Assembly (NCBI GenBank): GCA_020354555.1
Contig: CP070648.1
Location: 47,733-111,732 of the forward strand
DNA: 64,000 bases
Source of the DNA: Armatimonadota bacterium
GTDB lineage: Bacteria; Armatimonadota; Hebobacteria; GCA-020354555; CP070648
Reading direction: 5' to 3'
In this document: piece by piece, positions 62,889-64,000 of the stretch
Layout of the letters: the number at the start of each line of letters is the position of its first letter
How positions within the stretch are numbered: the first letter of the stretch is position 1
Notes under the pieces: model-generated
Database searches by the model: none
What the model saw: only the letters and a program-made list of their open reading frames with translations
What the model was told of the DNA's origin: nothing
Translations under genes and position numbers: made by a program

Positions 62889-63560
62889 ATGAGCGAATCG
62901 AACAAGGCCCCGTCAATCGCGGCGATTGAGCAGACCATCAAGCGGCTGCGGAACGTTTTGTCGGTCCGTGTCGCGGGAAATGGACAAGGGGACGTCGAGG
63001 AAGTACACGTCCTCATAGACAACAAGCGCAACCCCAAGCAGGTGGGGCGCGACATCGAGTCGGCCCTGATGAGCGAGTTGGGGGTGCGGGTGGATCATCG
63101 CAAGATCAGCATCGCGCAGGTGCGCGACAGCGAGGCGCGGGCACCGGAGCCGCGCTTGCAGCTTGCCAACATATCGATCACGACCGATCGGCGCCTGGTG
63201 CAGGCGCGGATCACGCTGAGCCGGGGGGAGGATTCGTTCGCCGGCTTGGCGTCGGCGCCAAGCTATGACTACGAGCAGCTGCGCCTGATCGCCGAGGCGA
63301 CGTTGCACGCGGTGACGGAGTACCTGCACAGCGCGGTCGAGGATGATGAATCCCGCCCGGCGCTGGCGGTGCAGCGGGTTCATGTTTCGAGCCCGGGCGA
63401 AATGGAAAAAGACGTTGTGATGGTGTCGGTAAGGCTGATTCACGGAAGGGGTGATGAGACACTGGCAGGGCTGGCGTTCGTTCGCCACGATTTGTGGAAG
63501 GCGGCGGCGTGCGCGACCCTGGACGCGATCAACCGAAGATTGCCCTGGTTTGTGGAATAA
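62889..63560 (+). CDS. Conserved hypothetical protein with internal duplication
   Basis: 223 residues. The N-terminal part reads VEEVHVLIDNKRNPKQVGRDIESALMSELG and VDHRKISIAQV, a pattern I associate with a conserved hypothetical protein of Firmicutes, Actinobacteria and Armatimonadota, without an established function. Two similar C-terminal units follow: about 91-147 (SITTDRRLVQARITLSRGED...AEATLHAV) and about 162-220 (HVSSPGEMEKDVVMVSVRLI...CATLDAI). Each carries V-V/RI-L, AGLA and A-ATL-A. No membrane segment. The ATG at 62889 has no strong ribosome site. Confidence 0.75.
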   Translation: MSESNKAPSIAAIEQTIKRLRNVLSVRVAGNGQGDVEEVHVLIDNKRNPKQVGRDIESALMSELGVRVDHRKISIAQVRDSEARAPEPRLQLANISITTDRRLVQARITLSRGEDSFAGLASAPSYDYEQLRLIAEATLHAVTEYLHSAVEDDESRPALAVQRVHVSSPGEMEKDVVMVSVRLIHGRGDETLAGLAFVRHDLWKAAACATLDAINRRLPWFVE

Positions 63561-63571
63561 TCACAGCGCAG

Positions 63572-63594
63572 TTGACATTGCAGCAATATTGCAG
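63572..63594 (+). promoter_or_regulatory. TTGACATTGCAG motif with direct repeat of ATTGCAG
   Basis: The 12-mer TTGACATTGCAG (63572-63583) is identical to 62722-62733. Here ATTGCAG is repeated 11 bp later (63588-63594), one helical turn apart. No good -10 follows at 17 bp, so it is more likely a regulator site than a standard promoter. Confidence 0.4.
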
Positions 63595-63605
63595 CCAGCA
63601 CCCGG

Positions 63606-63727
63606 CCCGGCGGTAACGCCGGGGCGGTGATGCCTTCCGTAGTGGGGGACCAGGAGCCAGTATGTCAGGGCGAAACCCCTGGAGCGGAGCGGTACCGCCT
63701 GTCTGCCGAGTAGCGGAGCCAGGCAGA
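63606..63727 (+). ncRNA. Candidate structured leader RNA
   Basis: Between the 223-residue protein gene and a microprotein: CCCGGCG-GTAA-CGCCGGG (63606-63623), a perfect 7-bp stem with a GNRA tetraloop; CAGGG/CCCTG (63666-63681); palindrome GCGGTACCGC (63690-63699); and TCTGCC/GGCAGA (63702-63727). It resembles no riboswitch class I can name. It ends just before a strong ribosome site. Confidence 0.45.
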
Positions 63728-63753
63728 GCACTGAACCTCCAGGAGGTGTCGCT

Positions 63754-63831
63754 GTGGGTAAGTGGATGTCCGTGCTGCTGGCTCTGTTGTCCCTGATGCT
63801 GGCCGGTGGCGCGAGAATCATGTGGCCGTAA
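63754..63831 (+). CDS. 25-residue hydrophobic microprotein
   Basis: GTG at 63754, preceded by a perfect AGGAGGTG with optimal spacing, opens a 25-codon frame ending TAA at 63829-63831. The product has a basic start (GKW), a hydrophobic core (SVLLALLSLMLAGG) and a RIMWP end: a single membrane-spanning or signal-like peptide. It is too short for usual gene callers. It follows a structured leader and lies 76 bp before the next membrane-protein gene. Function unknown; a leader peptide or small membrane regulator are both possible. Confidence 0.6.
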   Translation: MGKWMSVLLALLSLMLAGGARIMWP

Positions 63832-63907
63832 GCTGACCACTACTTGAACTCGCGTAAATGCGAAGGCCCTGTGCTCCCGGTCCCCCTACGGATGCACTCA
63901 CGACAGA

Positions 63908-64000
63908 CATGCGGAATCTGCCGCCGCCATTACGGGCATATCTCGTCGCGGTCCCCATCCTCGGGGGCGCGCTTCTGGTCTGGTTGAGCCTCGGGCTCGC
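63908..64000 (+). CDS. Membrane protein, N-terminal 31 codons (cut by window end)
   Basis: ATG at 63908 (MRNLPPPLRAYLVAVPILGG) opens a frame to the window edge with a first transmembrane helix (AVPILGGALLVWLSLGL). The NLPP-LRAYL-AV opening recalls the N-terminal membrane region of some HD-GYP or MASE-type signalling proteins, but with 31 residues this is a guess. No clear ribosome site; GACAGAC precedes the ATG. Confidence 0.5.

Follow-up and report, generated by a model that had tools for sequence, protein, structure and literature searches.

A candidate cis-acting RNA element that encloses a microprotein reading frame upstream of predicted HD-GYP genes in at least three bacterial phyla

INTRODUCTION

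Structured leaders that contain a short open reading frame (ORF) are already known as a general kind of control element. In the attenuator leaders, such as tnaC and more distantly secM, a structured RNA with a short ORF lies before the gene, and the TnaC peptide ends in Pro-stop. The c-di-GMP riboswitches GEMM-I and GEMM-II adjoin genes of the c-di-GMP type and have short conserved unpaired motifs. In toxin mRNAs of the hok type a small hydrophobic peptide is combined with a hidden ribosome site and long-range pairing, while at intrinsic terminators a U-tract comes directly after a helix.

Here we describe a locus with likenesses to each of these. It has a structured leader and a short ORF, whose peptide in its own class shares the Pro-stop end of TnaC, before a gene of the c-di-GMP type. 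Like the GEMM RNAs it has short conserved motifs, like hok a small hydrophobic peptide, a predicted hidden ribosome site and long-range pairing, and in half of the loci from phyla other than Armatimonadota its outer helix has a U-tract after it, which in Bacillota resembles a terminator. Yet the element and its microprotein have no match in Rfam, Pfam or NCBIfam, and our search of the open literature found no description of them. Searching Rfam 15, with its c-di-GMP and other riboswitches, gave no gathering-level match in the window or in the homologous elements, and at E ≤ 10 it gave unrelated families only. An earlier note on this DNA had stated that the leader matched no known riboswitch, and against Rfam 15 that holds.

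RESULTS

Organization of the locus

The window, by which we mean the whole stretch of 64,000 nucleotides that was analyzed, corresponds to C1:47733-111732 in a 4.88-Mb Armatimonadota assembly. On the + strand of its last kilobase a gene encoding 223 amino acids is followed by a leader of about 190 bases and an ORF of 25 codons, after which a membrane protein gene begins. The features are as follows.

62889–63560, + strand: upstream 'anchor' gene, 223 amino acids, uncharacterized; a near-constant neighbour of the element
63606–63623, + strand: GNRA (GUAA) hairpin CCCGGCG-GUAA-CGCCGGG, read in the sequence; 5′ of P1 and not in the conserved element
63636–63651, + strand: 5′ arm of the P1 helix (UCCGUA, a 2-nt bulge, GGGGGACC); from the minimum-energy fold, and covaries
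63668–63684, + strand: 5′ arm of the P2 helix, complementary to the ribosome-site region; from duplex energy and folds
63680–63754, + strand: sole match in the window of the Bacillota-only RNA model R2 (24.1 bits, E 0.0031)
63683–63691, + strand: AGCGGAGCG motif, AGCG(G/A)AGCG family-wide; from the cross-phylum alignment
63699–63726, + strand: P3 hairpin CUGUCUG / CAGGCAG with the conserved UAGCGG in its loop (63711–63716); cross-phylum covariation
63737–63753, + strand: ribosome-binding region, forming the 3′ arm of P2; GGAGG at 63742–63746
63754–63831, + strand: micro-ORF with GTG start, encoding the 25 amino acids MGKWMSVLLALLSLMLAGGARIMWP; frame kept, under purifying selection
63879–63892, + strand: 3′ arm of P1 (GGUCCCCCUACGGA), between the stop of the micro-ORF and the downstream start codon; from the fold and homologues
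63909–64000, + strand, running past the window: start of the downstream MASE9/HD-GYP membrane gene; MASE9 match

Much of this had been read in the letters by the earlier note, and its ribosome site (GGAGG, before the GTG at 63754), its hydrophobic peptide of 25 residues and its membrane protein gene (starting at 63909 and matching MASE9) all stand. The GNRA hairpin that it placed at the head of the leader is indeed present, but lies 5′ of P1 and outside the conserved element; in the sister genus (L071) a stem persists at this place with another loop, and for the remaining families of the class the alignment has none.

The neighbouring genes

The first 250 readable residues of the downstream gene match MASE9 (E 1.5e-10). 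Reading beyond 64000, as the earlier note had advised, the membrane gene continues to an assembly gap of 100 N about 0.75 kb past its start, into which the HD half falls. The assembly has other runs of about 100 N besides this one (L021:2395-2494, in the MASE9/HD-GYP gene), and these cut later genes. A homologue of the gene carries HD_5/HD domains (HD_5 E 1.2e-30). On its own MASE9 domain and the HD_5/HD domains of this homologue, we assign the gene as a predicted HD-GYP protein of the c-di-GMP phosphodiesterase type. In one member of the class (L077, G013:C53) the RNA and microprotein are directly followed by DUF5317 in place of MASE9/HD-GYP, and no MASE9 match was found elsewhere in that genome; the module thus does not strictly need the HD-GYP neighbour.

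The 223-residue upstream protein has no Pfam or NCBIfam match above cut-off. Within the phylum 68 of 291 genomes have a relative, and at least 573 relatives were found on GTDB contigs, spanning Armatimonadota, Bacillota, Actinomycetota (Coriobacteriia) and others; searched phages gave none. The order of leader, micro-ORF and MASE9/HD-GYP gene recurs 3′ of nearly every relative, the exceptions including Zixibacteria and one Armatimonadota family. An AlphaFold2 model of the protein is confident (pLDDT 92). Its C-terminal half resembles the regulatory domain of LeuA (Foldseek E 2.4e-5), with weaker matches to dsRNA-binding domains, and its N-terminal part is ferredoxin-like. On some Bacillota and Actinomycetota contigs (L178, L180, L200, L203) the cluster goes on with putative DUF5317 and SecA genes, as read from the translations. 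The actinobacterial contig L200 also has a raiA RNA (RF03072, 155.7 bits) at 1100–1399, about 2.6 kb upstream of the 223-residue gene.

Structure of the leader RNA

In the minimum-energy fold the leader and micro-ORF are together enclosed by the long-range helix P1, in which 63636–63641 and 63644–63651 pair with 63879–63892. The fold of 63625–63895 (−122.9 kcal/mol, z = −2.74) is equalled by 2 of 200 shuffles and that of 63561–63760 has z = −2.25, which bears out the further stems that had been proposed in the leader. Both folds contain P2 (63668–63684 with 63737–63753), whose duplex energy of −25.2 kcal/mol, against −12.8 when shuffled, was matched by none of 200 shuffles. Other versions of P2, as AGCGGUACC/GGUGUCGCU or as the short CCUGGAG/CUCCAGG, were dropped or extended, this pairing being stronger. 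P1 taken alone in the window is not significant in an ungapped scan (8 of 40 shuffles as good), because the helix here has a bulge, nor is the free duplex of the whole window flanks (68 of 300 shuffles as good); the case for the predicted P1 in the window rests on homologues.

Among those, no shuffle out of 40 gave an equally good P1 helix in 87 of 112 scanned loci, a figure that serves as a guide, the scan taking in a few loci that lack the element and some duplicate genomes. In an unguided alignment of 14 Armatimonadota, 88% of the cells of P1, P2 and P3 are paired, with 44 double-change cells compared with 14.4 shuffled and 4–14 in slid controls; P2 alone has zero double changes in this alignment. 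Across phyla 97.4% of P3 cells are paired, with 23 double-change cells compared with 6.6 shuffled, and in Bacillota P2 and P3 together are 99% paired, with 21 compared with 7.6. If the AGCG site may be chosen freely the null for P3 is permissive, with a median of 10.4 and a 95% point of 16.6 beside the observed median of 17.6, so the case for P3 rests on these covariation counts. Compensatory changes exceed both the shuffled and the slid controls, and we therefore take the element to be a cis-acting RNA with conserved secondary structure, as judged by comparison of sequences.

Pairing of the ribosome site scores 0.80 over 86 loci, compared with 0.62 when the upstream sequence is shuffled (p 1e-7). 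The register of P2 differs between clades, and in the own-class loci L073–L076 the duplex equivalent to P2 is not significant. In the cross-phylum alignment the AGCG(G/A)AGCG motif is invariant except at the single G/A position; together with the UAGCG motif of the P3 loop it is predicted to be unpaired, and both are conserved across phyla.

What follows P1 varies. Outside Armatimonadota 14 of 28 loci have UUUU after the helix, where 4.1 would be expected, and in Bacillota this U-tract looks like a terminator before the HD-GYP gene. Among Armatimonadota it occurs in 4 of 49 loci (2.3 expected) and it is absent from the window, which rules out termination as a general role of P1. The HD-GYP gene of some families starts hundreds of bases past the helix. 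That the element might control the downstream gene, as the earlier note proposed, fits the layout and the terminator-like U-tract of Bacillota.

The micro-ORF and its microprotein

The best 19-residue Kyte–Doolittle window of the peptide scores 1.88. All 8 of the 8 class homologues have a GTG start and exactly 25 residues. Within the class pN/pS is 0.24, third positions accounting for 306 of 495 pairwise differences, and across nine groups of micro-ORFs it ranges from 0.04 to 0.6, again with an excess at the third position. The conserved frame and the excess of synonymous change argue that the micro-ORF encodes a conserved microprotein. Across the family this has 24–46 residues and a common plan, with a positively charged start, one hydrophobic stretch of helix length and a motif of small residues, often GGA.

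One Armatimonadota family (L090-L092, L094, L096, L097, L102) has a long proline-rich tail, YPPPKPPPPPSASY; here pN/pS is 0.04, with hardly any amino acid change. In L106 and L107 a related leader region precedes an HD-GYP gene; the peptide encoded by its short ORF is not the same (MTNMINAITTAVNGCGRFAFFPPGD in L106) and may be a divergent form of the microprotein.

Homologous leaders covary and the frame of the micro-ORF is conserved, the two points on which the earlier note had staked its suggestion. It had offered a cis-acting RNA or a small membrane regulator; covariation, frame and synteny in three phyla support both, jointly and not as alternatives.

Distribution of the element

In DNA searches the sister genus is 81% identical over the entire leader, and in more distant families of the class the match begins at 63682 and stops where the micro-ORF ends. 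With only own-class sequences in it, an RNA model gave no match beyond that class, because P2 and the flanks differ elsewhere, and the wider family was reached through the peptide profile and the upstream gene. A profile of the own-class peptides matches its own genome at E 1.5e-14. Searched against the phylum it gave many weak matches, mostly within large ORFs, and the synteny was common to only three of those inspected (L058, L064, L065).

For the wider search the query was a profile of 28 microproteins, using the peptide only. Matches came from 17 of 26 genomes in the Thermosediminibacter class, from 33 of 250 in the Coriobacteriia class and from 66 of 300 in a Bacillota phylum, a genome nearly always having just one. 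Where the surroundings of such peptide-only matches were fetched, AGCG[GA]AG lay upstream in 60 of 67, the 223-residue gene was present in 64, an HD-GYP match in 62 and a strong P1 helix in 54. Of the five loci without the HD-GYP match, in four a membrane gene begins shortly before the contig runs out, and the fifth has just 119 bases of downstream sequence. The module is thus found in Armatimonadota, Bacillota and Actinomycetota (Coriobacteriia), at least three phyla.

The covariance model R2 was built from twelve Bacillota leaders and contains no Armatimonadota sequence. Against the 64-kb window, with E up to 10, it gives the single match listed above, at an E-value that is modest and roughly calibrated, and it matched 37 of 58 further loci at the positions of their leaders. 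A quicker whole-genome search with R2 passed over the own-genome copy, so the model has a limited reach across phyla.

A second copy of the element was not found in the own genome. Two other kinds of origin were considered and rejected. As to a repeat family, the DNA matches in the own genome to the SD/start region look like chance and lie inside unrelated sequence. A mobile element with terminal inverted repeats is contradicted by the single own-genome copy, by a position that is always behind the same gene, and by arms that compensate together.

DISCUSSION

A leader that would gate a membrane microprotein

The best explanation of these observations, which we hold as plausible and still tentative, is a cis RNA element, not described before, with a small membrane protein encoded in it and a possible link between sensing and HD-GYP activity. 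Most likely, we infer, the small membrane protein is translated under the gating of the leader RNA and acts with the HD-GYP enzyme. The ribosome site is predicted to be paired in most clades, so the leader should control synthesis of the microprotein, and the two conserved motifs, being predicted to be unpaired, suggest recognition of a small molecule or protein. Conservation of the amino acid sequence over phyla suggests that the microprotein has a job in the membrane, and its constant neighbour, the MASE9/HD-GYP enzyme, is the likeliest partner.

In such a mechanism a small molecule or protein signal would be sensed by the leader through its conserved unpaired motifs, and would open or close the ribosome site and so set the amount of microprotein. 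This would lie in the membrane and work with the membrane sensor domain of the co-encoded HD-GYP enzyme, so that the signal received by the RNA would be linked to c-di-GMP turnover. P1 would set the unit of leader and micro-ORF apart from the rest of the message. In Bacillota P1 and the U-tract could stop transcription before the HD-GYP gene unless the helix is opened, for example by a ribosome on the micro-ORF, and in Armatimonadota P1 may act as a processing or boundary element. A bolder version, in which the RNA belongs to a new class that senses a signal and controls a c-di-GMP enzyme by an indirect route, through an internal microprotein, with P1 coupling translation to transcription of the enzyme gene, seems to us improbable; if true, a single RNA would be sensor, mRNA and terminator.

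Alternative explanations

The rival that survives best, though itself unlikely, is that the micro-ORF encodes an arrest or leader peptide, a ribosome pausing near its end reshaping the RNA to switch the HD-GYP gene and the peptide having no job afterwards. Structure around the ORF suits attenuation, and the W-P-stop with which own-class peptides end resembles the Pro-stop of TnaC, many Armatimonadota peptides ending WPPP-stop. In E. coli the artificial sequence FQKYGIWPPP causes arrest (PMC10192921). However, the C-termini vary among phyla. The peptides of Bacillota and Coriobacteriia keep the hydrophobic core and have ends without proline (NFKM, HFQWG, FTKM), so the arrest motif is not common to the family, and Pro-stop or polyproline arrest as a family trait was rejected. 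At 25 residues, moreover, the ribosome would still have the hydrophobic part in its tunnel; where export monitors were searched for in a published study, >30 residues were asked for so that the localization signal would be exposed (PMC10987492). The 3′ arm of P1 lies from 1 to >60 nt past the stop of the micro-ORF across loci, too variable a distance for one ribosome footprint. An export monitor of the SecM/MifM type was also rejected, the peptide having only 25 residues and the next gene being MASE9/HD-GYP, where the criterion asks for >30 residues from signal to arrest site and a position upstream of secA, secDF or yidC (PMC10987492).

We give lower odds to the three remaining readings, of a riboswitch, of a type I toxin and of an exported signal peptide. 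A new riboswitch in the 5′ domain, with the operon under the control of its ligand and the microprotein secondary, would account for the conservation across phyla of AGCGRAGCG and the UAGCG loop, both predicted to be unpaired, and it suits the predicted sequestration of the ribosome site, the terminator-like end in Bacillota and the adjoining second-messenger enzyme gene. Yet a riboswitch needs neither a micro-ORF under amino acid selection inside the helix nor a helix that spans an ORF, and the element is unrelated to known Rfam aptamers, none of which suggests a ligand; we consider this reading decidedly unlikely.

A type I toxin-like peptide, silenced in the manner of hok by a folded mRNA with paired sides, would explain the small hydrophobic peptide, the sequestered ribosome site and the long-range pairing of the two sides, but is very improbable given one copy usually per genome at a fixed operon position and slow amino acid change over phyla. 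It is equally hard to believe that the peptide is exported and cleaved after the GGA-like motif to free a short pheromone, for while it looks like a signal peptide in having a charged start, a hydrophobic core and A/G-G-A ahead of a short tail, its tails range from about 4 to >20 residues and its constant neighbours are the 223-residue gene and HD-GYP, and not an exporter, peptidase or peptide receptor.

If a leader RNA does gate a membrane microprotein as we propose, then RNA structure and microprotein, conserved together in a fixed operon, would make up a widespread control unit that gene finders miss. The homologue set and covariation models, with the predictions made here, offer a route to testing the function of a bacterial membrane microprotein, and allow one to ask whether an RNA signal feeds c-di-GMP turnover.

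Comparison with known systems

Set beside the systems with which we began, the element differs from each. In contrast to tnaC and secM, a long-range helix encloses the whole ORF, the part common to all the peptides is the membrane core and not the tail, and the gene downstream is that of an HD-GYP enzyme, in three phyla. Unlike GEMM-I and GEMM-II, to which or to related Rfam models it has no match with E up to 10, it carries a micro-ORF and has another architecture. Where hok-type mRNAs are concerned, the element differs in being a single copy on the chromosome, in an operon that stays fixed across phyla, with no known antisense partner. Compared with intrinsic terminators, the loop closed by P1 is about 150–250 nt long and protein-coding, and the copy in the window has no U-tract. 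A structured leader with a short ORF is familiar, and what sets the present one apart is the helix that closes over the ORF, conservation as deep as this and a microprotein of membrane type; a helix around a whole reading frame is an unusual design in bacterial gene control.
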